64,000 nt of DNA, taken from NCBI RefSeq assembly GCF_002775205.1, contig NC_036460.1, positions 24,136,751 to 24,200,750 of the forward strand, in the 5' to 3' direction. A program made the position numbers and the translations under genes. The notes beneath the pieces were generated by a model. That model saw nothing but the letters and a program-made list of their open reading frames with translations, ran no database searches and was not told the DNA's origin. Origin of the DNA: Xiphophorus maculatus (Eukaryota > Chordata > Actinopteri > Cyprinodontiformes > Poeciliidae). Position 1 is the stretch's first letter. Each line of letters opens with the position of its first letter. This document shows, in pieces, positions 19,527 through 64,000 of this stretch.

Positions 19527-34401
<14,875 letters not shown>

Positions 34402-43900: not shown

Positions 43901-45189
43901 TAGGGGGCGGAGACTCGGAGGGAGCACTGGGAGGCGGAGACTCGTAGGGAGCACTGGGAGGCGGAGTCTCGGAGGGAGTCTACGAACCCTGTGGTTCAGT
44001 TCAATTTATCCGTCTTAGTTACTTACCATTGAGTTTGTGAAAAATTATAAACATAATCAAATTACATTTTCAGTGTTCTACTAATCAACTTCATTTATAC
44101 CATTAGGCAGATTTGGTGACAGTGAAGTGATGCTTCACTCTACAGGAGATTTGACAAACACACAATAAAAATTAAATATAACAAGATCAAGAGTCCATCC
44201 ATCCATCCTTCTCCAGCTGCTACCCCCGCGACCCGACCCCGGATAAGAGGAAGAGCATGGATGATTAAAAGTGGCCTTTTAAATACATGAAGTATTAAAA
44301 GTCATAAAAACTATCAAATAAAATCACACAGATTTTTAAATACAGTATTGTTCAGACAAAGATTGAAAATGAATAAAAATAATGTTGCATTTGCCAATGA
44401 TTAGGAAAATGCAATGAGAGATGTATTTATTTTAGTGCTTGTCACATTTCTATCAGGGCTGCCAAGAAGTGTTTCGAGAGTCAAAACATCAAAATTTTAC
44501 GCTGATAATAAATCAAATCATCCACTTTTTATTTATTTTTTTTTGTTTTTAATGGTTTCGTGTTGCTTTAATTGGTTGGCGGATCTCAGGAGGAGCAGTT
44601 GGACCTGGTGTCTCTGGGCTCGTCTGTGGAGGAGGAAGACTCCCCCCTGGTGTTTTTGGAGAAAGTCCATCAGTTCAGAGATCGGGTGGAGAAGTTCATC
44701 AGAACCCCGCTGCCCTCCGGCATCAACCTGTCGGTGACGCCGCGCGCAGCGGCCTACCTGCAGCAGAACTGGCCCGCGGTGACCATCAGCAGCCTGGAGC
44801 AGGCGCCGGTTCCCAAGCTGTGCTGCCGCACCAGATGCGACGGTGGCGTCGGCACAGAGGCAGACCCGCCTGTCCCGCCTGCCTGGGACAGGTGGCGCCA
44901 GCTGAAGCCCACCGCTTCGGTAGCTCTGCTGGGCCTGCTGCTGCTGCTGGCGGCGTTGTGGGCCAACCCCGTCGGAGGCGCGTCGCTCGGGTTCTCCCTC
45001 CTTTCCCGCCTCAGTCAGCTGGCCCAGAGTCTGAGCGGCAGCCTCGTCTCGTCCGTGTGGGACACAATGGAGGCGGAGTGCGCAGAGATGGGGGCTGCAG
45101 TGCAGAGGTGGAGCTCGCAGCTGTCTGTCCTCAGAGACCGAGTCGTTCAGCAGGTGGCTGCTTTACTTAAAACGTCGACGTCTCGCTGA
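40981..45189 (+). CDS. trim59: Tripartite motif protein 59, four coding exons
   Basis: RING-type ubiquitin ligase anchored in a membrane. Coding exons 40981-41235, 41306-41527, 41611-41820 and 44590-45189, all phase 0, 428 residues (human 403). The RING is complete: Cys10, Cys13, Cys25, His27, Cys30, Cys33, Cys56, Cys59. The B-box 2 has Cys97, His100, Cys109, Cys117, Cys120, His126 and His129 (GQHHGHPIDDLQ is the TRIM59 hallmark). A coiled coil follows (about 160-260), and a hydrophobic segment VALLGLLLLLAALW (about 340-353) is the membrane anchor. Tail-to-tail with smc4 and next to kpna4, as in human. As I recall, the human coding region sits in one exon; here three introns cut it. Third codon positions and the first exons are GC-rich compared with the flanks. 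The donor of exon 2 (GTGGGG) is weak. Confidence 0.94.
42136..42357 (+). repeat. Direct repeat of about 80 bp, period 141 bp
   Basis: Two similar units, 42136-42215 and 42277-42357, share ATTTCTCTGA, TTTCTC, ATCG and GGAGTAATACTGACCCC / TACTGGCGA. They lie inside the long repeat block of trim59 intron 3. Confidence 0.7.
43599..43873 (+). pseudogene. GRAMD4-like coding fragment in trim59 intron
   Basis: One open + frame (after a stop at 43596-43598) encodes ENLSVFEKLHLARDVGHKAQ, then NLFGDMANILEKTKNLCMW, then LKFYVGLWLAFICLCVLPYQ. The amphipathic helix plus hydrophobic segment is the layout I remember for the membrane-proximal part of GRAM-domain protein GRAMD4. It is cut off on both sides by repeats and has no start or partner exons, so it is a stranded gene fragment. 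The parent assignment is from memory; MCTP proteins have a similar segment. Confidence 0.45.
43903..43982 (+). repeat. GC-rich minisatellite, three 27-bp units
   Basis: Three tandem units of the form GGGAGGCGGAGACTCGGAGG + GAGCACT, differing by single bases. Directly after the GRAMD4-like fragment. Confidence 0.8.
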
Positions 45190-46766
45190 GGAAGGCCGAA
45201 CTGGAAACCAAACTGTCTGAACGTGGAGGAGTCTCTTTTCCCCAGTTCCAAAGAACCAAAACTGCCTCACTTTTGTTACTTCTGCTAGTTACGATTTTAC
45301 ATTAACAGGTATGTTTGAAGTTTCACATAAAAAAAACACACTACGTCGTGTCCAGCCTAAACAGCAACAAGGGTTTTTGTTTTTTTTGCCTTCTCAGCGA
45401 AACAGGAATTTAATTAAGCCAGAATTTCCTCTGCTCATTTCCTGTCAGCACACTTAGGAGATGAAGACAATCAGAGGAGAAATGCTGCAGCAGCAGCAGA
45501 TGTGCAGGTTTCACGTTCATTTCCTGGGTGTTTCACTCTATAATCACACATTATGTAGCAATATTCATTTTTGATAAGTGTTACTTTCTTCTCATTATAT
45601 TACTTCCACTCATAATAAAAGTTGCAGAAACTTGCATCAGATCTTTCTGACATTATTGGACACGTTGCATGTGCACCTTACCACACTAGACTGTTTACAA
45701 CAAATAATGGAGGAATGTGTTGCATAAGGAGCGACTCCCAATCTGTGCCTTTAATTATCCTGCCTCCCCGTTTCTCCCAGGACCAGGACTTTCAAGGAAA
45801 TGGCGCATCTTGAAAATCTGCCTCAGAACAAAGTCCATCATGGCGCCTTGTTTACCATGTTGGTTTGATGTAAACTGGGATTTTGAAATGTGGCAAAACC
45901 ACAGCACACAGCCCTCTGAAACAAAATAAATGTAAACTGTAAAAATTTGTTGCAACCTGTAGGTTTTGTTTTTTTTCCTATAAACCTTTTTAAATATTCA
46001 ATAATTCATGTAATAAAATTTGCAGAATTACATCTTTCAAGCTTCCATTAAACTGTGAAATCAGACTTCAGACTGTCACACCATGTGGTGCCACCTACTG
46101 GACAGCTAGTGCAAGTTCATAAATGACACCTTTGGATCATCTCGCCGGTCCAATATCAGACGTCTTTCCAGGTTGAGAAAAATAAACTAAAGACGTGTTA
46201 AAAAAATTGTTACACTTAAATCTCTCCATTAACATGCACGCCATTCATCTTTTTTTTTTTTTTCAGAAATTGAACATTACAGTAGCTATATTAACATTTT
46301 ACAACTGCAGCCACTTCCTAGATATTGCATCGTCCTTCTATTGTGATCAACATGTATCTGCTTTACATTGGTGGCATGTTCTACATTTCAGTTTGAAACA
46401 CACTGAACAATTGATTTGGTTAAAAATTATATTCTACCAGTGGATTTCTGACTTCCAGCCCTTAAAGTGAGCTATAATAAAAAAAAAAACTTGCTGCTCT
46501 GAATCTGTCAAACCAGTGATAAACTGTTATGTTGGAGGAATCAAATTTAAAGAGGTCAAAATATCTTTTTGCCTTTAGTAACATTTCAGTTTATTGTAAA
46601 TCATGATAGCTGGAAATGTTAAGAGCATTTAGCCAATACTGTAAAAAGCATTCACAATAGATGGAGATTTTCCCCTGAACATGATTTAAAGAGCTGGAAA
46701 TTTGTTCTTACGAGTTCTTCCATTTTGTTTAAGAATAATTTCACAAATAAGTTTATTAAAAAAAAC
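45190..46766 (+). other. trim59 3' UTR and gap to smc4
   Basis: Sequence between the converging genes trim59 (+) and smc4 (-). AATAAA hexamers for trim59 occur at about 45613-45618 and 45925-45930. No other gene seen. Confidence 0.45.
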
Positions 46767-46772
46767 TTTATT
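46767..46772 (-). terminator. smc4 poly(A) signal
   Basis: AATAAA on the minus strand (TGAAAAATAAAGTTT), 101 nt past the smc4 stop codon. A second hexamer follows at 46757-46752. They imply a very short smc4 3' UTR. Confidence 0.6.
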
Positions 46773-46788
46773 TTTCAGATTAAAGAAA

Positions 46789-46805
46789 TAGCAGCACGTT
46801 ATTGG
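46789..46805 (-). promoter_or_regulatory. miR-16 target site in the smc4 3' UTR
   Basis: The minus strand reads CCAATAACGTGCTGCTA. It is complementary to nucleotides 1-11 of the miR-16 in this window and, after skipping three microRNA bases, to nucleotides 15-20. It lies 68 nt after the smc4 stop and 16 nt before the poly(A) signal. The central bulge favours repression rather than slicing. The pairing is seen directly; the function is inferred. Confidence 0.6.
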
Positions 46806-46820
46806 AAAGAACAGTACAAA

Positions 46821-46828
46821 TATTTACA
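46821..46828 (-). promoter_or_regulatory. Pumilio-type element in the smc4 3' UTR
   Basis: TGTAAATA on the minus strand fits the Pumilio consensus UGUANAUA. It sits 15 nt before the miR-16 site in the transcript. Confidence 0.4.
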
Positions 46829-46872
46829 TGGTTTATGAAAGAACATTAAAAGATAACAACAAAGTTGGCTTT

Positions 46873-49800
46873 TTATGCCGTGATGGCATCGTGTTCCCTG
46901 AACACGATTGTTTTGGGATTGATTCCGACACTTTTGGTTGTGTTGTGTGTTTTATAGATGCCGATGAGACGATCCGCGATCTCAAACATGTTGTTCCTCA
47001 AGGAGATGATGATGAACTGAGCGTTCTTTGTCTGTTCCTGCAAAAAGAAAAACACGTTTTAATTATTTAGGCATACAAAGTTACTGTTGAATAATTTCTT
47101 AGTGCAGGCGGGATTCTCTCTGTTTACACACTTTAAAGCTTAAGGATCGTCCTGCTGCAGTCACACAATGACATTTTTGTCACAAAAGGAAAAAGTTATG
47201 ATGCGACCTTCAAGAACAAATGATAAAAGCTGTAAAAAATATTAAAGTAAACTGGCAGCCTAATTGTGCTCACATAAATATAACAGGCAACGATGGAGAC
47301 GTTCTTGAAGTCCAGCGCGGCATCGATCTCGTCCATGAAGTACAGCGGGGTGGGCTTGTAGTGATGCAGAGCAAACACCAGAGCCAGAGAGCTGAGGGTC
47401 TTCTCCCCCCCTGACAGGTTAAAGATCTTTTTCCAACTTTTCTTTGGTGGACGAACACTAAAACGAATAAAAACGAAAGAATACGTCAAATAAATAACAA
47501 ACAGAGCTGTAACATCACATATAAATCCCAGCATGCACCAATAACGTCTTGACTGTTTTTTTTTTTTTTTTAATCCTCCCTTACCTGAACATGATTCCCT
47601 CAGAGAACGGATCCAAGCTGTCCACCAGCTCCAGCTCTGCATCCCCACCTAGTGTCAGCATCTGGTAGTTCTCCTTCAGCTTGTTGGTGATCATGTTGAA
47701 CCCGGTCATGAACTCATTGAGCCGCTGCTTACGGAGGTCCTCGTAGGCGCGCTTGAACCTGTCTCTGTCCGCTGTGATCTCGTCCAGCTGTGCGACGCGC
47801 TGCAGGTACAGCTCCTCCTGATGACACAAAGCGTCGGAGATGACGCGCGTTTATCTTATGCCTTTGTAAAACAAAGTCTGTCTATTAACTTTTGGTGTAA
47901 AAAAATATATATATATTTAAAAAAATGGTACTATGTCCGGTCAACTGGTGATAAATGTCCGCTTCGTCGCTCCTCTCCAGTCGTTTTCATGCTTGTGAAA
48001 TTTTGCTCTTGTAAACGTAAACCTGCACATGCCGGCTTGCCACGCGACACACACATTTCAAAGTGTGCAACTGTTGTCACTGTCGGTTTTCAACACTAAC
48101 TTGTCACCGTCGCTCCCGTGTCTGGAGTCGCCCCTGACAGACACACAAAGCTAGCTAGCAGAGCTATATTGGCAATAAAAGCTATGAAGACATCTGTGAC
48201 CGACTCAAACCTTTGCCTGACAGAAAAGCAAAGTGAGGTAAAAAAAACAAACAAAAAAAAAAAACATGTACGACACTAAATAGTTATAACTACTTTGAAG
48301 ACCAATTTTGAAATTTGAAGACCTGTGATTAATATATTTGAAGCCAACTTACGAATTTAAGATTTATAACTAGTTGCATGAAGTTAAGACTTTTCAAGCA
48401 CGCAGAGACCCTAGAAATATATTTTCTCTCAGGGCAGCAGTGAATGAGAACGAGTCCTCCTTCATCCCGACCAGGACACCTTGTAGTGTTTGTGTGTACC
48501 TTCTTCTTGTACTCTGCAATGGCTCCTAGATTGGGCTTCATTTGACTACACTGGCTCTCCAGCATGCTGATCTTGTTCACCAGGATGTTTGGATCCGAGA
48601 TGGCTTCCAGCTCAGCAGGGGCAAAGACACGGAGTTCCTCTGCTGGCTGGCCCTCAATGGTGTGAAGGGACAGCTTGGTGCTCTGGAAGACAAAAAACAG
48701 GCATTATTAAAGACAACAAAGCTCAGCGAGCCTGGTTGTTCCCCAGCTGTCTACTGGTTTAGAGTTATGTGACTCGCCTCATCCTGCCAGTACTTGATCT
48801 TGCCGTTGTGCTTTGTGATGGCGGCGTCTATCTGCTCGATGGTCAGCCGAACGTTGAGCGACTCTTCTTGCAGTGCGTGCTCCTGCTGCTGCAGGGCCTT
48901 GATCTCCTTGGAAACGTTCTGGTACTGCTCCTGCACCTCAGGCAGAGTGGCCTACACAACCAGAACCAGAGCAGGAGTAAATCAGTATTATTGATGCTAA
49001 GGATGTCCTCTGAGAGAGAAACACTCCCCCAGCAGATTTAAGATGTTCTGATACGAATAAACGTAAATGGCAAGCAGCAACCTCTGCCTCGTGGCAGGTT
49101 TTCATGATCCCCCCCGCCTCATCTTCTAGCTTCTTCAGCTGCTCTGTGAGCTCAGCCATCAACTTCTCGTTCTCTTCCAGCTCTGCTCGCACACGAGCAA
49201 TGCTCTCCTCACACTTTTTCAGGTTTCTGGAAGACAAACGGAAGAGGATTTAGACGTTTCTCCAGTGGTGTCGACGGCAACAGCCAAAGCAGACAAGATC
49301 ATACCAGACAAGCATTTCATTGGCCTTCAGAAAGCAAGGCTTTTGTATTACTCTGGTTCGATGCTGCTCACTTTAACATTGTATACGTTTGCTTTTATAT
49401 CCAAGCGAAGCTTTACCAAGCCATACTGCTGCAACCAATAGGAAAATTCAACTGCCTAAGCACCACCAGACCAAAAGAGGCCAGCAGTGAGACGGTTTAA
49501 GGCAAATAATAATGCCGAACTAAACAAATTCGTACAGAAACGTTACCATAGAATGGTAAATAACCTATTTAGACAGTTTGTCAGCAAAAACAATTTGGGG
49601 GTTAGTTTAACTTTAATGGAGCATTCATTACCACCAACCTAACTGGTAAGGAGTGTTGCCAAGAAAGAAAAAAAAAATCACCCTACATTACAAATTACAC
49701 TGTCTTAGACTTAAAGTAAGTATCAGACCATATTCTATTTTAGATAAATATATAATGTCTAGTTTAGACTGTGACAGATTTGATACACAAAACAAAAACA

Positions 49801-50629
49801 ACAAGCAGTTAATAGAAATTAAACAATCATAGAATCTAGACTGCATGAAGTAACGTGCGTCTTGATGATGAAATTGTGCAAAACCGAATTAAAGGGCACA
49901 CAGCATCAAACCTTTGAGCCAAGTCTGCTAAACGAGGGAATGTCTCAGGCAGGACATTTTTGAAGCACACAGGAACATGAACTTGTGTGGTGCAGATTTG
50001 TATATCTTAAAAGTTTAAAAGTTACCTACTGCATCTTTAAGACTCACTAGAAGTCCTCACTATTCTTAACATTTTGTCACTTTAGGAGGTCTCTTAAAGC
50101 CTGAGGTTCTCCGTGAATAACTTCTATTTTACCAAGGTTAAAATCTATGTGGGGAAAGAAAAGTAAAAGAAAATCACCACTAGGAGCCACTTTCTGTCTT
50201 AGACATAAAAGCAACCAGGTCTTTATAACCCTCTTCAGTGTGGAAGTCATTAAAAGATGAAGAAAACTGAAACGTTCTTCCAGAAAACCCATCAAATCGT
50301 CTGGACTTTGAATTGAATAAAAATCAGATAAAGGTTAGGCAGTCATACTTTTATGTATTGATGCACAATATATCTGCATTAACATCGTCTGATGTTAGTC
50401 ATTTTTTAACATATTGGTCTCACAGCGGAAAACGGGGCGACATTAATAAACAATGTTAGTTTCCATCATGTTGCTGTTGGGATCATGTTTTTGGGAAAGG
50501 AAGTCTGGCGGCCATGTTGTATTTGTTGAGGCAAGTAAATAGTGATGCAGCACAGGAAGGAGGGGTGCTTAAATAAAGCAGAGAAGCAATGTTAGTAGTG
50601 TCATTTTTCAGCGTTAAAAGAGTGGAGAA

Positions 50630-50660
<31 letters not shown>

Positions 50661-53600
50661 GGTGAATCTCTACTTTGATAATCCCTCTATTATAGACCCT
50701 ACAACTAATCTTTTTTTTCCTCTTTCATGGTACATATTGTTGCATTTGATTGTTGCATTAAACAAATGAGTTGACACGTATTACAGTCTTCATACAGAAA
50801 ACCAGTACTGACATCACCAACCTCAAAGAAAACCCAACATCAGTGCCAGCAGGGAGAAGCCGGACTGTTTCATCTTTAATATTTCCACAGTGAGGATCCC
50901 TTACCGATCAGCCGTCTTTATGGCCACTTTGGCCTTGGTGATGATGGAGGAGCAGTCGTCTAGCTCTTTGTTGATCTTGTCGAGCTTATCCTGCTGAGCC
51001 TTCAGTTTGTGGCTGTTGATGTCAACAATCAAGTTGTGGAGTCTTTTCACCTCGTTTTCCACCTTTCCGGCCTTACTGGACGCTGACTCAAAGTCTAATA
51101 AAGAGAGAGGAGGGGGAAAAAAGTAAAAAAAGAAAAGAAAATGAAACATTGTGGCATTAAAACTTAAGGCAATATATTTAAATTAAAATCTACTCGGTAT
51201 TGAAGATATACTAAAGGGTAGAGTGTATTTTTCCAGAAGTTAAGTCTTAATCTGACATGAGGAAGGCTATAATGACATAAAACAATTAGCACCTCTCTTT
51301 ACAGTTTATGCAAGTTCCTACCTTTCTTGAATGCCTCCAGGCTCTTCTCCATCTGTTTCTGCTTGGCTTTGTCTGGGGCAGCTGCCAGCACATTGGCTTC
51401 AAGCTCTTTAATCTGAAGTTTCAAGTGAGTCTCCTGGTCAGCCAGACTCTAAGGGTGGAAGAAAGGGGGGGGGGGGGGGGGGGGGGGGGGGGAATAAATA
51501 AAACTTCTTTAATTAGGTAAAAAAAAAAACTGCTCATTTGTAAGCCTGGATATAGGCAACTGATATCATTTGAAGCATAAATGAAGCACAAACAAGGAGG
51601 CAAGCGGAGCATAAAGTGTCATACGCTCATGCTGTTTGTGTATTTTTCCAGAGTGTTCTTCATCTCTCTGAGCTGAGGCTGCAGGCGCTGGACGTTCTCC
51701 TCCAACTGCAGCCGTCTCTCCTGGCAGCCGTGCAGCTTTGACACTTTCTCATTCAGCTTGCTCTCCATACGGTCGAGCTGTAAAAACACACATGGAAAAT
51801 TAAGTTTTGTTGTGATGGAGGACACACTTGGTACACACGTCGAATGAGCACTTAAGCTGCCCAGTTGGACTCGTTTGTGAAGCTTACACCATTTAACTTG
51901 TAGACGAGTGAAAAGAGCACAGTGCTACTAATGTGTCGTTCTAGATACTAATAGAGAAAAAAAGGAAAGCAAATGACACACAATTTAAAAAAAAAAAAAA
52001 TCTTTCTTTGCATAGTAAAATTCATAATATACATTAATCAGTTGAATAAGATGGAAAGTCAATAATAAAAGAGTTTAACGGCCATCTTCTGATTGAATTA
52101 AATCCCAATATTTTCAAACTATAAATACAACCAACAGCATGTACTTTGATGCAAACGAAGGCCAAATAAATGGAGATAACATTATGCCTTTATTTCTCTT
52201 TAGATTTGAAACAACTACAACAAATTCTATTAAAAACCTCCCAACATTTTCTCCGTCATTCCCATGGTCTTTAGGGAGAGGAAACTGGACTTCATTCAAA
52301 ATCAGGATCAGAAATAATTCAAACCATTCAAAAGTTTGTTTTTTTTATTTTTACCTTCTTTACTTTTTTTTTTTTTTTTTTTTTAAATGCCATGTTTAAG
52401 TTGAAAATGTGACTTTTATTTATTTGCATGTTTTGAACTAACCTCGTCCTGGGACACCTCTTGGCCAATAGAAGACCCCATCCTGCCTTTCATAACTCTT
52501 CCACCTCCAGTCATTGTTCCTGTGCAACAAAAACAAAAATAAAAAAGAATGAGAAACAAAAACTTTGCCTGAGAGTTAATTATTAACTATTCCGTCGCAG
52601 TCTGTGAAGGACAAGCTGTAATAAGATGACAAAACTTTGCATTGTCATGGTCCAAAAGGCTGCTTTGACAAATGATTTAAAGTTCATTTATATTATCCAG
52701 TAATAATCTAGATGAAGGAATATGGGTTCCATGAGTTTAAGAAGTTATAATTACAAAGACAAGGGGACTCAAGTTGTTTTGGTTTGATCATCAGGGCGAA
52801 TATACTTTAGTTAAACTGCCATGCTAACATTACACCAAAAATATGGAGCAAATACTTTCAGATTAAATACTTCAGATAGTTCATCTGAAAAAGTTAGCAT
52901 ATCCATTTCTATTTAAATTATTACGATGTAGTTTGCACCAAAAAAAATAGTTTATATTCTGCAACTCTTTTTCTACAATTTCATACTGACTTTCATATAT
53001 TATGTAATTCTTTTTAGAACACAGTAATTGATACTCTGATTACAGCCTTGATTTAAAGCCTTCTACTCCTGACTGTAAAATAAGCTACAAACATATAAAA
53101 GCCCCATTATGAAATAAAATACAGTTATATACAATCTTACCTCATCACATTAACTTTTTGTGAATCAACTGAATTGAGCTCGGGCCATTAGAATTTACAC
53201 CAAAAGATATAATCGGATCTTTTTATCATTCCCTAATTAAATAAAAGCAGGAAGGTCACTCAGACTTTGAGTGTTGTTGAAGAGAATGTATGTAGGCTCA
53301 GGAGAATCACGAACACAGCTCCAGGAACTGTTCAGTTGTTTTAATCAGAAAAGGCTGAAGTTGTAAGAAAAACTAGACTCACGTTTTAGTCAAAAACAAT
53401 TTCTGCTCTTTTTATCTTGGAAACTTAATAAGCGCCCTCACCGCCGGTAACCGATTCATGTCCTGGCGGTAAACAAGCTAGAAGTAAGAACTCATACCAA
53501 AAGAATTAAATATAAATAGTAAAAAAATAAATAAATACAGGGACAGAAAAAAAAAAATCCCATAGAATCTTGGTGTAAACATTGGAGAAATTTATAGATA

Positions 53601-56600
53601 CATTTAATATTAAAACATAAAAACATGCCTAAGGCGATATTTGAGCTCGGATTGTAATGTCAAGGAATTCCATGCCGATGTACAGTATATGCTTTATGTT
53701 CTGACTGATTGCTTAATTGAGATCATTTATTTTTTGTTTGCCATTTTTTATGACACCACAGTTGTGTGTTTAGGTATTGTCAATAGTGGGGTTTTTATTT
53801 CCTGTCAACTTTTAACATTTTTTAACACCAGTACCAGTTGTGGTTAGAAATTGACCCAAAAAAATAAAAATAAAAAAATAAATAAAGCAGGACAGGAATC
53901 CACGTAAGAGTGACGAATATCACCAACCTGCCATTTCAATTATCTGCCCCTTCAGGGTGACCACCCTCCAGCGTTTGTCCTTCTGAAAGGCCATCCTGGT
54001 GGCCTGCTCCATGTCTTGAGCGACCAGGGTGTCCCTCAGGGCGAAGTAGAACGCCGGTCTGACCCTCTCATCGTTTACTCGCACCATGTCGAAGAGGCGG
54101 GGGCTGTTTTCTGGCGTTCGAATGGAAGTCATGTTCTTCTCCCAGACCTTCATCTAAATCATTTTTTTTTTTTCAAAAAGCAGTCAAAAGGAGAACCAAA
54201 ACCCTGTTTAAGTTTATAGAATCTTAAAGGTACACTGACTGAAGTTTCTAAGGGTTACATTACCTTGTCAAGGCCGATGAAAGTGGCGACGCCGATATTC
54301 TGCTCTTTGAGGAAAGTGACGCATTTCTGAGCCGTGTCGATTGAATCCACCACGATGTTGTCCAGAGCGCCGCAGCAAGATGAAACGGCCACATCGTACT
54401 TTTCATCTATGGCTCCAAGATCTCCCTATGAGCACCAAAAACACATTTAAAACCCTACATTATGATTATGAAAAACAAATGTAGGAATAATGACAAAAAA
54501 TATAAACAAATGAAAAGGTTTTCTGTAAAGTGTAAACAGGTTTTTACCAATCTTCCGTAGATTCCAGGGATTTTGCCGCTCTTCTTGAGCTGCATCAGAG
54601 CGTCCAAGACTTTTCCTCGACTGCGATTGGAGGACAGGGAGCTCTTGGCTTCGTCCACCTTTTGCTGCAGTTCTCTCACCACGTGCCTGGTGTCATTATC
54701 CACCTTCAGCAGCTGTTCCAACTCTTCCTGGTCCTGTAGTGAAACACGGAGAGTAAGTAAAACAGAAGCTCTCTCAGGGTTCCTGCAGGCTTCACCAACT
54801 CAAATTTAAGGCTTTCTTAAGACTAGTGTGACAGAAATTTAAGATAGGAATGTACAAAAAAAAAAAAAAGCATGTTTTATATCGAAGTAGTGCCAAGGTT
54901 TTGGGAACAAAATGCACACACAGCAGGGCCTGGCAACAGAGGTGAAGATGAATGCTGTCCTGCAAACTGTGAACAAACTTACACTTTCCCATGACAGACA
55001 CAAAAAAGCTAGCTAGCAACGGTATATTAGCGGCAGCCTCAAACGACTCAAGTCACAGAATGGAACAAAAATGTCAAGCAAGGAAAAAAAAAAAAAATAC
55101 AATGAATAAAGATTAAATAGTGCTGCCATGACAAAATTTAAGATCTGTGATCAACTTATTTAAAGCCAACTTACATTTTTTGTAATGAATTTAAAATATT
55201 TTGAGGTCTTGATTTTAGATACATGATTTTAAGACTTCACGCTGATTTTGGCTTTTCTCCGTTGATCGTTTTACCTTTTTGAGCTCCTTTTCCTTCTGTG
55301 GGATATGGACCTGCAGGTCTTTGATGGCGGGCCGGCGCTCCTGCAGAGTGTCCGAGGTCGTCTGGAGCGTTTGCTTAGCCGCGTTCAGCTGAGTCAGAGC
55401 CGTTTTGTGGCGGCTAAGGTAGATGTCGAGCTCGGACTGAGCGATGTCCATTTGAGAGCGGGTCTCGTTGACGGCCTTGCTGAGTTCCATGAGCTCTTTC
55501 TCTTTTTTCTGGGAAGTAAGAGCGGTGTTTAAAAAAAATTAAATAAAAAAAAAATATAAGAACAATTGAAGACTTCATTTAACAGATAATAACGCAGGGC
55601 TAATCTGGTAACCTCAGCCAAGTCGTCAGCACATCTGCAACTACACCCACACACACCTCTTTGTCCTGTTGCAAGCCGCTCGTCTCTTCCTTCAGACTTT
55701 CCATCACTACTTTCAGTTTTTCTTCTTCTTTCGCTTTCTGCTTCTCCAGGTCTTCTTTTTGGGCCGTCGCTTCAGAGATGGCTTGTTCACTGCTGGCTGG
55801 TATGCCTCGCACTTCCTCCAGCTGAATAATGAGCCAAACAACAAATAAAGAACGGTTAAAACTAAAGTAGACTGAGCAAATTTTACATTTTTCTCAATTC
55901 AAAATGTGAGTATCCGTTGATTAAGCAGTGAATATTATGATTCAAGCCATTTTTTCTGTTAATTCTTGTTTCTAACTAGTGAAAATCCTAAAATAAGTCT
56001 CACAAATTTTGAGTTTAATTTTAAAATAAATATATATATACATATATAAATCAAATGAGAACGAAATTCAATACAGAAATGTTACAGCCTATGTAATCAT
56101 CTAAAAAGACTCGACTTGAAAGTTGTCCAGTGAGTTTTCACACCTTCAACAAGTAGGTAAGCCACAAGTTCCTGCTGAAGAACTCGTCTCTTCATATTAC
56201 TGTATCAAAGCAATGGCAAGCTGAGAGAAATACGTGTGGTACAAAAATGTGCAAAAGTAACAGGAAAAACTGCTGTCTTGTAAGGACTGTGAACAAAAGC
56301 CCATTCAAGAGTTTGGTGGAACCTGACAAGGTTTGGAAAGCAACGTTAGAAGCGTGTTACCTGGGATAAGAAAGAAGAAGCAGAAGAAAAAAAGGACTAG
56401 ACTCTTGCTCAGTGCTCAAAAGTTCTTATTTCATCAAAGTGAGTTTTGAACTTTGAGAAGTCAAGCTCCAAGAGTCTGGAAGAAGAGGGGTGAGGCACAG
56501 AAGCCGTGTTGCTTGATGTTTCTACAGTCTGTGTCGATTTGGGGTGCCAGGTCGCCTTCTGCCGTTTGTCCACGGGGTTTCATCAAGGCCATCATCAGCG

Positions 56601-59600
56601 TAGCAGTCCATCCAGAAATGTTAGAGCACATCACGCTTCCCTCTGCTGACAAGCTTCATGGAGATGCACATTTCATTCTCTAGCAGGCTTTGGCACCTGC
56701 CAACACTGCCAAAGGTTCCAGTCTATTGACCATGGTACAACCATGATTAACCACCAGCAAATTCACCCGATCTGAACCACAGAGAGCTTAAAGTACTGTC
56801 AACAGGAAAAGCCAACAATGGAGGCGAGCTAAAGGCGGCTACTAAAGCAACCTGGGCTTCCATTACGCCACAGCAGACCCACGATTCTTTATTAAATAAT
56901 TTAACTGTCAAAGAAAAATAATTAGGTTTTTTTGTTTTGTTGAAGTGCTAAAATAAATGAAATGATAACCTATATATTATTGTGATACATATAACGTCTC
57001 ATCAACAAACTGTAATCCATAGCGCACAGCACCTCAGATTTTAACACACATTGCACTGCATCTGTCATCTCCATGGTTCCCTGCCTATGGATTTTGTAGT
57101 CTATTGAATACACACATTTGCTGCCGTTATGATGCAAAACCTACAAAGGGTGTTTAGTAGTTAGTAGATACGATGTATGCAAGTTCAGCTCAAAGAGGGG
57201 AAAAAGGAATAAAAAAATAAAAAGCACAGGCGACAATAAGGTACCAGCCTGCCACAAATCTGTATATGATGGAAATATATAATACTGTTCTCGGCTTCCA
57301 GAAGCAAGAAAATGTCCACCTAATGTGAAAATACTTTAAAGTACAGTGCTGATGGACAACATAAATAAGAAACTGAATAGATGTAAAGCTAGTACAGACC
57401 TTTAGGTCTAAGAAGATAAGATGGATGTAATTCCTATTTTTCATCTGTTAGTTTTATTTACAAAAAATTTTTAATAATAAAAAAATTCATTTCCAAGCTT
57501 GTTTTGACTTTAATGAGATAAAATTTGAAACCAGGCCACTAATTTGTGCATTTACACTTTGAGGTTTCCAAGAGCCGTGATGACTCATTTTGATCTTGCA
57601 ACTATGATGTCAACCCTTTTCCCCTCCTCACTTCGGACGATGCCTGAGGCAAAAATAAGCAAGAAATTAAGAATTTAGTCATACAACAAGTGCAGTCTGT
57701 AAACGTATAGTCAGAGCTGCTATAAATAAGAAAGCCAGAATGAAAATAAAAACGTAATAAATATTAGAAGAATCAATTGGGATTTAAGATGGATACTTTG
57801 AAGACCTTTATATCAAAAGTACACTCAAAATTTAAAAACTAATATTTGACTCACACACACATATATGCAATTATTCTTTGATCGCACTTCTATTGTTACA
57901 CATGAAAAGAAAAATAAGGAAAAAGAACAAAGGGAAGCAACACCACAACCTCATTTAATTGTGATAGGATTTAATTTAAGACTTTGCCTGTAGTAGATCT
58001 GACTAAAGTCAGAACATCCCATTTTAATAACTCAAATACATAAAGCTCAGATTACTACCTGTTGTGAAAGTGTTATTTCTAAGAAACATGATCAGGAGTG
58101 TGTTTAATTGTCTGTGGATCACAATTCGGACCATTAAGCAAGCAAACCACAGGATATGATGCTCCATTTATTCATGTGGTGTAAGACCTGGAATAAATTT
58201 GATAGGAGGAGGTCCCGTTGGGAGGGGAAAGGGAAAAAAAACAACACAAAACACAAAACAGACACACACACACACAAAAAAAAAATCTGTGTAAATTACC
58301 AGCTACTACACAATGCATTCTAAAGCAGACCGAGAGCACACATGTAATCAAATATAAGCACACGAAGACCAAACAAGCCCTGGTTAAGACTGCCACAACA
58401 GTCTGCATTTTGGCAGAGCTGAAACAAAGCAAGAATTGGCATCTGCATATATAGTTTATGTTGTGTAGGGTTAACTGCGGGTGAAATGTGAATGTGGCTG
58501 CTGGACGTGTTACACAAGCCAGGCCATAGTTGACTACCACACAGCAGAACACTGCTCCCCAGAGGTCAGGCTGCCTCTGCCCAGCTCCCCCTCTGACCAG
58601 CAGAGTTCCAGGAGAAAAGGCCTTCAGAGCTGGGAGAAAACGTCAGCCATACGTCCCTGAACAAATGATTTGGATCAGCTATGTTGCAAAAATAAAAGGA
58701 TCGGCAGTTTAATCCATCAGGACAAAAATAGTTGAGCAAAGCACACACCCAGATTCACTTTGTGCAGCTTCGCAGCCCCCTAGTGTCTGATAACTCGTTG
58801 ACAGTTTCACATTAGTTTTTATTTTTATTCCACTGATAATATCACTTTAATGAAATCACAAAAATCATATAAAACATCTCTTTTTCAAACACTGCTGGAA
58901 AGAAAATTTTCCAAGTAAGGAATTATTTGTACAGTACTTGTTTCACCATTACTGTAATTGATAAAAAGGAACCATTCCTTGATGCAAATATTCGTGAGTA
59001 AAAATATCCATATTTTAAGACAAGAAAAGCTGCCATTTTGCTTTTTTGGGGGGGGGATCATAATCAACATGCAGTCAGGCAAAATACTGTCATAAAAAAG
59101 CTATTAAAAAGGCTTTTTTAATATCAATTTGTATCTCTTCAGAAGCACAAGTTTTCACAAAAAATAAAATAAAAATACCATACTGCAAAAACACTAAATC
59201 CTAATAAGTAACTTTGGTGTAGATTCTGGTATAAACATCTTCGTACACCTAAAATAAGTCAAAGCAAACTTACAACTAACTTAGGAGCTTGTCTTAAAAA
59301 AATAAGTAATAATTTCTTAATATTGATTAAAAAAAAGAAAAAAGTTCCACTAGCAGATTATTTAATTTATAACACATTTCCACCAATGTAATCAGTGAAA
59401 TAATCTGCCAGACAAACTGGTACTTTTTCATCTCTATTCAAGAATTCCTGGTTTAAAACAAGATCCTATATCTTGCTGAAAAGTTACTTGTAAGTAGGTT
59501 TTGACTTATTTTAGGTCTACCAAGATATACGTACTAGAAGCTAGACCAAAAATACTTAGTAAAACTGTATTTTTCAAGTGCGTTAAGAAATATTTTTTCC

Positions 59601-62600
59601 TTAAAGAGAACTTGATTCAGCCTAAAAAAAATTATACAAAACAAATTATTTATAATTTAAAAAAGTCTTAATAAATAAAAAGGACTGATAGTTGTATGTC
59701 TCATTAGGGGCAATACAATCCCCCTCCAAACAAGCTATTTCACTACATCTGAGCAACAAAAACAGCAAACACCAAAATCCCCGTGGCTTCCTTTCTGACA
59801 CATTTTTAAAATTTATTTTATTTCTTCCATAGGCCACAACCAAAAACACACAAACCAACCCCAGTAATGCCAGGGCTGTCTCAGCATTACTTTTTTAATT
59901 AAATGTGTGGGGTAAATTTAGAAAACAAAAGGCTAAAATTACACACCTCTGTCAGATCCAGTATCTGTGTGCCTCTGAACTGTGCTGCCTGCAGTGATAT
60001 TGTCAGAGTGACACAACTTATCTATTCCAGAGCAGCAAACACTAAAACCAAGTGAGATAAAGTCATTGAACTGCATGCTACAGTGGATCCGCTGCAACCT
60101 AAAGGCCAACACACCTTTTTCTGGTCTTTTTCCAGCTGCTTCTGCAGTGCCTTGTTCTTGCTCTTTGAGTGTTTAATCTTCTCACGCACTTCAACATCCT
60201 GCAGGTCCAGCTGGGTGAACTTTCCCTTCTGGGTCTCTATATACTTGTTGATCTTATTTTTTTTCCTGGTGGAGGAAAAGCATTTTTTTTTAAAGAATTA
60301 AATTCGAATCAGTTTTATGGGGGGAAGAAAATCTATCAAAAGCAATCCTTAAAAAAAAAAACACTAATAAATGGGGGGGGGAGCCAGGGGGGAACAACAG
60401 TTAGTTTCTGTAACAATTTTTTTTTTTAGTAAAAAGGTTCCTTTAAGAGAATAACAGTACATGAAACTCTGTCATGTTTCTACTCTTTTTCAAAGCCAAC
60501 TACTTTACAAATAACTAATTTCACATAGATTAGAAACTCAAAGTGCTGATAAATTCCTCTAAATGTCTGAACAAGCAAATAAAAACCTACATTGACAGAA
60601 ATGTTACTTAGTACACAAACCAGGTTACATTAGTAACAGAGGAAACAAGTTCAAGAAAAGCAGATTTCTTACTTTTCCACATTTTGGAGCTCTTGGTTCA
60701 TTTTTTCCATCTCTTCTGATATCTTTGCATTTTTTTCAGTGAGCTCCTTGGTTTCCTCCAAAATCTTTAGCTTTTCCTGTTCTTTATCAGTCACACGTTT
60801 TTGTAGATCATGACTAAAGAAAAAAAACAACAAAAAAAAATCATATTATGCAACAATATTTTTTTTTTCTATTTATACACTTCATAATGGTAAGATATCA
60901 GCGAAGAGTCCCGCAGAGCTCTTGTTGGTCCTTCTTTTTGTCATATTTTGTCCTGACTGGAGCACAGAGGTGCTGCTGGTGTACTCACACATAGTACTGG
61001 TGGAGCTGGCTCTTGTGTTTGAAGATGTCGTTCTCCAAGGTGAGGAACTCCACAGCTTTATTCTTTTCCCCCTCCAAAGCATTTTTCTCCTTTTCTACCA
61101 GCTTAACTCTATTCAGCTAGGACAGAACAAGAAAAAAAAACCCTGATACTTTAATTTCTAGACAAAAGTTTAAAAAATAAATGAGAAAAATCCTCAATTC
61201 TGCGGTCTAATGAAATTAGGCTAGCAGAAACTATGCCAGAGAGACATAAAAATAATTAGGTGCAAGCAGAATATAAATTAAATTCAATAAATGACTCATT
61301 TATGAGTAGGTGTAATTTAACTTTTGAGTAATACTTTATATCTGAATGTCAAAATGAGTGAGAGGGTCATCTCACAAAACAAAGTGTCTTTATATTTATT
61401 TCCATATTTATTATCTCATTTATTCACCTCTACGCCCGACTATGCAGTTTTACACCCCTTGCAAGTGTATGTACCTTTTCTCCCCTTTGCTCATTGAGCA
61501 GCTCGATGCGGCGAGAAAGAGTTTGGATCGGTTCTTTGAGACGGCATGAACCGATGATGTCCTCCAAGTACTCCAGCATCCCCTCATCATGCTCCGTCTG
61601 ACCCTTAGGCTTCATCATGGCAATCTGCTCCACCTCACCCTACACACAGCCCACAAGAGCAGATTGGAAAAGGCACACACGGATTCACAATAGGGCTGCA
61701 TAAAAATCACTAAAATTAAAATAATAATATTTTTTTTTAAAAACATACACCAATCTTTAAAAAAAAAAAAAAAAATTAAGACAGAGAGACAACTCTCTCT
61801 CACACAAAATTTTAAACAGAGTACACAAAAGTGTAAATAACATTACACAGCACAGAAAGACGACCTGATTCCACATTTTAAAAAAATAAATAAATAAATG
61901 AAAAACCCTGTCACTGAAAATCTCCAACTGTGAAGGGATAAGTTACATGATTACATTTGTGGAACAAAAAATATGCCGTTATTTCTGCTAAAATATCACA
62001 GCAACCCACCAATAATAATTTCCAGTGATGACTGGAAAAGTCATTTAAATTGTCATAAAAATAGATATTGTTTTTGCAAAAATAAATAGCGATGCACCGA
62101 TCTGGCTTTTCCTCGCCGATGACGATTTTTGGTTTATTAAAAGCTCTGGCCTGCGAGTCTGATTCATCTTATTTTGAGGAATATCACACAGAAGAGACAA
62201 AAGATGTGCTCAAAGCTGTCTGATAATTGGAAATAGCTTCAAAACTAACAAAATGAGTTACACAATTATCTCAATTCATGTGTCAAAGCATACATTTCTC
62301 TAACCTTATATCTTAAATCAACCTAAAAAAAATTTTTTTCAAAGTATATGCAATTGGTGGAATTGTTTATAGACCAAATAAGGGAGATTTCTCTATTTCT
62401 GATGCATTCTAAAAATATAAGACAAAAATAAATTAATTATAAAAAAAGAAAAAAAAAAATCTGTATTTTAGCAGCCAGTCAAAGAACGGGACCAAGCAAC
62501 AAAAATATTTGCCCAATTCCATTCCTTGGCTAATTGGTGCAGCTCTAAAAATGAGAGCCACTTAAACAAAACTGATATCTCTAAAACCACACACACACAC

Positions 62601-63249
62601 ACACACACATCCTCAGCTCTCCATTGTAACTCTATTGAAGTGGACATGTGCATTTATTTTTATTTATTGTAAATCACACGTCAATTAATAATATCATTAT
62701 TTATGATTTTTTTGTGAAATGCTTCTTTTTAGAGTCTCAATTTTTTAAAGATTTTTTTTTTTTTAAAAGAACGTTTTTTAAAATACTTGTTTTAATCTGT
62801 GAGAGAAAAAGCAGCTTTAAGAGTTGGGTGGTGGGGGAATCCCCACATCATCCTCTCCTCTGATCAGTGCACAAACTAGACAGCTTCCCCTTATTTACCA
62901 GAAGTCTGGAAAAGTGAGGTGACCTTGAAGACCAAGTTTAAACCTCCACCCATAGTCATGCAGCCGTGTCACCGACAGAAACAAACAAGAGGAATGAAAA
63001 AGGACACGCTCACATTGAAAGGAAAAAGTTCACCACTGAAATAAAATAAAGAAACCAAATGCAACTAAATTTGAATCATGTGCCTTCAGTTGATCAGTAA
63101 TAACAGTCAGGTCAGATGCAATACACTTTGCAGGGCTAGGAGTGTAACATGTGAACTTTTTTAGGGTGACTGCAAAACAACCCATGGGGAAAATATTTAA
63201 ATAATTAAGCAAGAAAATATTATTTTCAAGAATTCAGTTTATGTCAGAG

Positions 63250-63283
<34 letters not shown>

Positions 63284-64000
63284 AGAAAATATTAATAAAA
63301 ATGAGAGCCATGGCAGAGGAGGGTGTTTTACCCTGCCACCCTGAAGCAGCACTGCTAATATTGGTTTTTTTTTCCCTCACACACCAATATTTACGTGCTG
63401 CTAAAGTGTGGCAGGTACATGAGAAAGGGGAGCTCCAACCTGTCCTCCACTGGTGGCTCAGTCCCCCAAAACAAAAACTGCCTCACATAGTAGAAAATCA
63501 AATCTGGTCAAATCGTATCTTTTCCTTAAAATTCTAAAGCAGCAAATAATGGTTCGCACCTTTTTCACATTGTTTCAAACCATGATGCGCTGCTATAGCA
63601 GTCTAAGGGATGGCAGAGCACTCTCCTCTCCTCTTCTTTCCAACTCCAGTGCAACAGGTTATTTCACCCCCCCACACACACCACCCCCAAAACACACACA
63701 CACACACAGAGACAGGCAGGGCATAAAATAATATTTTAAAACTATCACCAGGAAATGGGATGAGGCACAGGGACTGGTAAACAGAAGGATGGCCATAAGA
63801 AGGATAAAAAAATAAATAAATAAAAATAATAATAATAAAAATACAATTACCTGCAAGATCAGAAATCTGTTGTGGTCTAGATCAATACCGTGGCTGCGGA
63901 GTAAAGTGCCAACTTCTTTGAAAGTGGCCTTTTTGCCATCGATATGGTAGTAAGAGGAACTGTCTCTGTTGGCAGTCCTGGAAACATAGAACTTGCTGTT
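46873..64000 (-). CDS. smc4: Structural maintenance of chromosomes 4 (condensin core), N-terminus outside window
   Basis: ATPase that pairs with SMC2 in condensin to compact mitotic chromosomes. Exons in transcript order: 64000-63851, 61639-61475, 61116-60989, 60813-60673, 60265-60115, 55821-55657, 55508-55275, 54733-54548, 54425-54264, 54153-53928, 52519-52443, 51777-51625, 51448-51322, 51094-50905, 49226-49082, 48951-48778, 48682-48500, 47817-47585, 47457-47274, 47037-46873. They sum to 1113 codons in frame. Visible parts: VSRTANRDSSSYYHIDGKKA and LLRSHGIDLDHNRFLILQ near the N-terminal head; long coiled coils; the hinge (IPGIYGRLGDLGAIDEKYDV, GTMTGGGRVMKGRMGSS); signature NLSGGEKTLSSLALVFALH; Walker B LYFMDEIDAALD. 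Walker A is beyond the right edge. One donor is GC (after 48778). The intron 61640-63850 hosts mir-15b and mir-16. Confidence 0.97.
48138..48413 (-). mobile_element. GTCTTAAAA MITE family, copy 5, truncated
   Basis: Inverted copy. On the minus strand it starts CTAGGGTCTCTGCGTGCTTG and continues AAAAGTCTTAACTTCATGCA, TAATCACAGGTCTTC, GTCAGGCAAAGGTTTGAGTC and GCTAGCTAGC. The right-hand third is missing. In an smc4 intron. Confidence 0.65.
49227..50904 (-). other. smc4 intron with TA/CA microsatellite
   Basis: 1.7-kb intron between the exons at 51094-50905 and 49226-49082. It has a short TA then CA run at about 50631-50660. No RNA gene is seen. Confidence 0.6.
51465..51492. repeat. G28 homopolymer (C28 in the smc4 sense)
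   Basis: Twenty-eight consecutive G on the + strand. In the smc4 transcript this is C28 inside a 176-nt intron, ending 15 nt before the acceptor of exon 51448-51322, so it forms most of the pyrimidine tract. Confidence 0.95.
51778..52442 (-). other. smc4 intron, small
   Basis: AT-rich intron with a T run near 52365-52384. Nothing recognised in it. Confidence 0.6.
52520..53927 (-). other. smc4 intron after hinge exon
   Basis: 1.4 kb of AT-rich intron. No repeat or gene recognised. Confidence 0.6.
54775..55244 (-). mobile_element. GTCTTAAAA MITE family, copy 6
   Basis: Inverted copy with good ends: on the + strand it begins CAGGGTTCCTGCAGGCTTCA and ends GATTTTAAGACTTCACGCTG. AAAGCTAGCTAGCAACGG lies in the interior. 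It makes up 470 of the 541 bp of the smc4 intron 54734-55274. Confidence 0.7.
56285..56835 (+). mobile_element. Tc1/mariner transposase relic
   Basis: The + strand keeps scraps of a Tc1-like transposase: APRVWKKRGEAQKPCCL, VSIWGARSPSAV, FIKAIISVAVHPEMLEHITL, PSADKLHGDAHFIL, then after a stop QALAPANTAKG. The order and wording follow the DDE transposase C-terminal half known from fish Tc1-like elements. Stops and gaps make it inactive. It lies antisense in an smc4 intron. Confidence 0.65.
59180..59582. mobile_element. CACTGCAAAAAC fold-back MITE, both arms
   Basis: Left arm TACTGCAAAAACACTAAATC and right arm AATACTTAGTAAAACTGTAT / TTTTCAAGTG are long imperfect inverted repeats. Within the arms AGATTCTGGTATAAAC and AGAAGCTAGACC also mirror each other, as do AGCAGATTATTT and AAATAATCTGCC nearer the centre. 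About 400 bp, non-coding. Related to 27107-27345. Confidence 0.6.
63332..63415 (-). ncRNA. mir16: microRNA mir-16 hairpin
   Basis: The 84-nt minus-strand hairpin runs from CCTGCCAC to GGTGGCAGG. The 5p arm at 63403-63382 starts TAGCAGCACGTAAATATTGG, the miR-16 sequence. The 3p arm (63364-63342) starts CCAATATTAGCAGTGCTGCT, the usual star strand. The stem pairs well and the loop is A-rich. It is in the smc4 sense strand, downstream of mir-15b, so both should be cut from the same intron. miR-16 represses cell-cycle genes (cyclins, BCL2, WEE1) in vertebrates. Confidence 0.96.
63524..63608 (-). ncRNA. mir15b: microRNA mir-15b hairpin
   Basis: The minus-strand hairpin runs from CCTTA to TAAGG. 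The 5p arm (63595-63574) starts TAGCAGCGCATCATGGTTTG, the fish form of miR-15b as I recall it. The 3p arm (63556-63535) starts CGAACCATTATTTGCTGCTT, matching the usual star strand. It lies 108 nt before mir-16 in the same direction, the order seen for mir-15b/mir-16-2 in mammalian SMC4. Confidence 0.95.

Follow-up and report, generated by a model that had tools for sequence, protein, structure and literature searches.

In the stretch of Xiphophorus maculatus DNA analysed here (64,000 nucleotides (nt), referred to as the window), the 3′ untranslated region (UTR) of smc4 contains a predicted site for miR-16, and the miR-16 gene itself is located in an intron of smc4. Judging from the sequence, we give about even odds (roughly 0.5) to the reading that the site is a canonical 8mer through which miR-16 would mildly repress smc4, in a self-limiting loop of a known kind. 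As a further case of the intronic-microRNA self-loops, the smc4/miR-16 loop is plausible and partly supported.

The site, its host gene and the rarity of the match

The first-pass annotation of the window had located the site 68 nt past the smc4 stop and ahead of the poly(A) signal; its sequence, coordinates and strand proved to be exact, and so did this location (Table 1). From the positions of the two AATAAA hexamers we infer a UTR of about 115-150 nt, in line with the length of about 120 nt proposed before. The inferred UTR holds a canonical seed match, the 8mer, which is one of the features expected of a self-loop; the other is that the microRNA genes and smc4 share strand and gene, and this was also observed. 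As had been claimed, the mir-16 hairpin lies on the minus strand between exons of the smc4 frame. The flanking exons of the intron that bears both hairpins are 64000-63851 and 61639-61475. We take the two hairpins to be those of miR-15b and miR-16 on the basis of their 5′-arm sequences. A match to the Rfam family mir-16 was listed for the opposite strand of the second hairpin (63416-63331). The last 193 residues of the smc4 frame matched PDB 9f5w_B (SMC4) with an E value of 2.1e-107.

In the minimum-energy duplex at the site (-24.5 kcal/mol), nt 1-11 and 15-20 of miR-16 are paired and a guide bulge of 3 nt separates the two helices, in agreement with the pairing first described. According to the proposed mechanism, miR-16 from the smc4 intron, together with miR-16 from a second mir-15/mir-16 cluster of the genome (L003:1260-1575, on contig C7), would be loaded into Argonaute and would bind the mature smc4 mRNA, provided that the site lies within the transcript, about 30-65 nt ahead of the poly(A) tail. 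By the ordinary deadenylation route the stability and the translation of this mRNA would be mildly reduced, and the outcome would be a self-loop that damps the output of smc4, a condensin subunit; the site may have been selected. Since the second cluster on contig C7 would act too, smc4 would not have this loop to itself. Of the host-gene loop envisaged at first, the shared strand, the shared gene and one strong predicted site stand. No further 7mer match to miR-16 was present in the 3339 nt of smc4 coding sequence within the window.

The rarity of the match was evaluated at several levels. Expectations for the 128-nt UTR were calculated with two Markov models and amounted to 0.002-0.005 for the 8mer and to 1.1e-5 to 2.3e-5 for the 11-mer. 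Of 5000 dinucleotide shuffles of the same UTR, 15 contained the 8mer, 89 a 7mer and none the 11-mer. A further set of 3000 such shuffles (mean -10.8, best -20.8) included no sequence that attained the duplex energy of the site, and none of 3000 shuffled microRNAs equalled it. When both strands of the window were divided into forty-base tiles, 3 of 8530 gave a better duplex than the site, and the mir-16 hairpin accounts for all of them; outside that hairpin and the site, the strongest duplex came from a tile at 19576 (-20.8). We also searched the assembly (704 Mb, 101 contigs), where the 17-mer occurs at least once. The pattern TAGCAGCACGT-N(0-8)-TATTGG occurs at least three times, corresponding to the two mir-16 genes (smc4 intron and contig C7) and to the smc4 UTR site, and the reversed control pattern gave 0 matches in the same search. 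These genome word searches omit very common words and their counts may be lower bounds; the rarity of the 11-mer is based on the Markov models and the UTR shuffles, not on the genome count.

It is a serious prospect, in our estimate somewhat short of even odds, that this seed match arose by chance and was never selected, being perhaps bound occasionally and having neither function nor history. Unselected seed matches to some microRNA or other are frequent in UTRs, many comparisons may have been tried across the 64 kb, and the 8mer by itself did turn up among the shuffles at the frequency given above. The scarcity of the 11-mer argues against such an origin, and so does the narrowness of the hypothesis, which compares the UTR of one host with the microRNA of that same host. 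The 3′ extension has to be considered apart: with the 11-mer kept fixed and the 21 bases upstream of it shuffled, equally strong binding was obtained in 1903 of 20,000 cases, and the strength of the match is for this reason that of an 8mer plus three more pairs rather than that of 17 base pairs. Of the 11 nt plus 6 nt in the earlier statement, the 6-nt part is not rare by itself, and the 17 base pairs, which do exist, were overstated as information. We also considered whether the site is an antisense copy of a fragment of the mir-16 hairpin. This was rejected, since the likeness, compared by eye, does not extend past the 17 bases on either side.

Pairing geometry, accessibility and other modes of action

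Taking into account that both microRNAs had been proposed to act on the site, we compared their pairing. The 5′ end of miR-15b is here UAGCAGCG, with a G at nt 8 that makes its seed (nt 2-8) unlike that of miR-16; this miR-15b sequence was not found in a literature search. At the site miR-15b has a 7mer-A1 match with a G:U wobble at nt 8. Its best duplex within the 30 nt around the site reaches -18.2 kcal/mol, as against -24.5 for miR-16, and its best one across the entire smc4 UTR reaches -20.0 with a long loop. Equal action of the two microRNAs was rejected on account of the G at nt 8 and this difference in energy. What is left of the proposal is that miR-15b could act through its 7mer-A1 match, with an effect that would be weaker than that of miR-16.

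The cost of opening the 17-nt site is 3.3 kcal/mol, where the UTR median is 3.8 and 35% of the positions are no costlier, and a net binding energy of about -21 kcal/mol is left for miR-16. The flanks of the site are 82% A+U. Several results, in addition to the ordinary 3′ extension, weigh against repression by miR-16. By local folding of the UTR, the accessibility of the 8-nt seed match was low, at 0.008 (5th percentile). Adding an A40 tail raised it to 0.014 (13th percentile), and a fold of the last 500 nt together with the tail gave 0.011, which is the 12th percentile of the UTR. The 3′ helix, at nt 15-20, has an offset of -3 and falls outside the optimal offsets of 0 to +4, which were measured with other microRNAs (PMC8940178). 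With this offset and this position, little added affinity is expected from the helix. The variant hexamer CATAAA lies upstream of the site, and if it is used as a poly(A) signal the smc4 transcript could lose the site. Finally, in the human NCI-60 lines the correlation between host and microRNA was positive for both SMC4/mir-15b (0.479) and SMC4/mir-16-2 (0.354) (PMC2686738). A positive correlation, as would come from co-transcription, suggests that any repression there is not dominant.

The extent of the pairing brings to mind two other outcomes. One is target-directed microRNA degradation (TDMD) via ZSWIM8, in which the smc4 mRNA would trigger the decay of miR-16, and high smc4 would lower a cell-cycle brake. 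The seed plus interrupted 3′ pairing recalls such triggers, and a review indicates that some centrally paired ones do work; validated triggers, however, typically have 3-11 unpaired nt with nt 9-10 open (PMC10899785). At the smc4 site nt 9-11 are paired, the 3′ helix has 6 bp, nt 21-22 are unpaired, and about -5.6 kcal/mol comes from the pairs that continue to nt 11 and past it. By comparison, the Plagl1 and Lrrc58 triggers for miR-322/miR-503 resemble our case in that an mRNA site pairs with a relative of miR-15/16, but those sites degrade the microRNA, whereas the smc4 site has a paired centre and a short 3′ helix (PMC12863257, PMC13041716). Moreover, miR-16-5p serves as the normalising RNA in mouse work, and Malat1 is described there as binding miR-15/16 without causing their degradation (PMC12863257). 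TDMD was rejected on these grounds as the main mechanism, and we regard it as very improbable.

The other outcome is slicing of the smc4 mRNA by Argonaute at the site, to which we assign even less credence. The uninterrupted pairing of nt 1-11 spans nt 10-11, but it goes no further than nt 11, where it gives way to the 3-nt guide bulge, and slicing was rejected as the main mechanism. Teleost Ago2 is, besides, a poor slicer, a point of background that was not found in a literature search on fish Ago2 slicing. A selected two-way switch was also contemplated, considering how deep into the guide the pairing reaches: miR-16 would lower smc4, and abundant smc4 mRNA would remove or sequester miR-16. 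Such a switch is a long shot; if true, the supply of condensin in fish would be coupled to the brake that the miR-15/16 family puts on the cell cycle.

Features of smc4 and its surroundings

The features discussed are collected in Table 1. The 5′ exons of smc4, which is on the minus strand, extend past the edge of the window.

Table 1. Positions in the window of the predicted miR-16 site, the smc4 gene and its intronic hairpins.
Feature	Position	Strand	Remarks
Predicted miR-16 site	46789..46805	-	CCAATAACGTGCTGCTA (minus strand 46805-46789); UTR positions 68-84; smc4 stop at 46873
8mer seed match TGCTGCTA	46796-46789	-	Pairing continues to nt 11; a further 6 bp match nt 15-20
smc4 3′ UTR used in calculations	46745..46872	-	End inferred from poly(A) hexamers
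AATAAA, first canonical poly(A) hexamer	46767..46772	-	16 nt downstream of predicted miR-16 site
AATAAA, second canonical poly(A) hexamer	46752..46757	-	
CATAAA, variant poly(A) hexamer	46832..46837	-	Upstream of predicted miR-16 site
smc4 stop codon TAA	46873..46875	-	
smc4 coding part within window	46873..64000	-	20 exons, single open frame, 1112 codons
mir-16 hairpin	63331..63416	-	Within smc4 intron 63850-61640; Rfam family mir-15
mir-15b hairpin	63524..63608	-	smc4 intron 63850-61640, shared with mir-16; Rfam family mir-15

It was also possible to see in the smc4 3′ UTR the Pumilio-type element UGUAAAUA (46828-46821, minus strand), 15 nt upstream of the predicted miR-16 site. Within the gene, the exon 48951-48778 has an apparent GC donor (GCGAGT) in place of GT, and an intron has 28 consecutive C on the minus strand at 51492-51465. 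A RING-containing gene on the plus strand, which we take to be trim59, is oriented towards smc4, and its long open stretch ends at 45189.

Relation to known host-gene loops

The closest parallel in fish is that of zebrafish miR-26b and ctdsp2, where an intronic microRNA also has its host as proposed target and the host transcript is reported to be repressed (Dill et al. 2012 and Han et al. 2012, as cited in PMC5825903 and PMC4159003). Host suppression was reported in that case, while the smc4 loop is known from sequence alone, and the host of mir-15b/16 is a condensin subunit, unlike ctdsp2. The same network motif was predicted for intronic microRNAs by Hinske 2010 (PMC3091682), Bosia 2012 (PMC3534558) and Zeidler 2020 (PMC7016697); those are large-scale predictions. 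SMC4 is not mentioned in the main texts of these three papers. Likewise, in literature searches on SMC4 as a target of miR-15/16 or of relatives sharing their seed, no such statement appeared among the matches listed or in the text portions covered; this result does not extend to supplements, nor to PMC7205818 and PMC4833141, which contain SMC4 together with a phrase on targets of miR-16 or miR-15b. We do not claim that the smc4/miR-16 loop is unreported; supplementary tables may be the place for such a prediction.

In human, mouse and chicken, mir-15b/mir-16-2 reside in SMC4 introns, a conserved co-location (PMC3675212). Host and cluster are the same as here, and no SMC4 3′ UTR site is reported in the available portion of that source. 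The prediction that miR-16 represses smc4 would be cheap to test, since it depends on a single 8mer in a short UTR that is open to mutation. If it is true, the level of a condensin subunit would be tied to a microRNA that restrains the cell cycle, and the conserved mir-15b/16 cluster would gain a direct reason for residing in SMC4.
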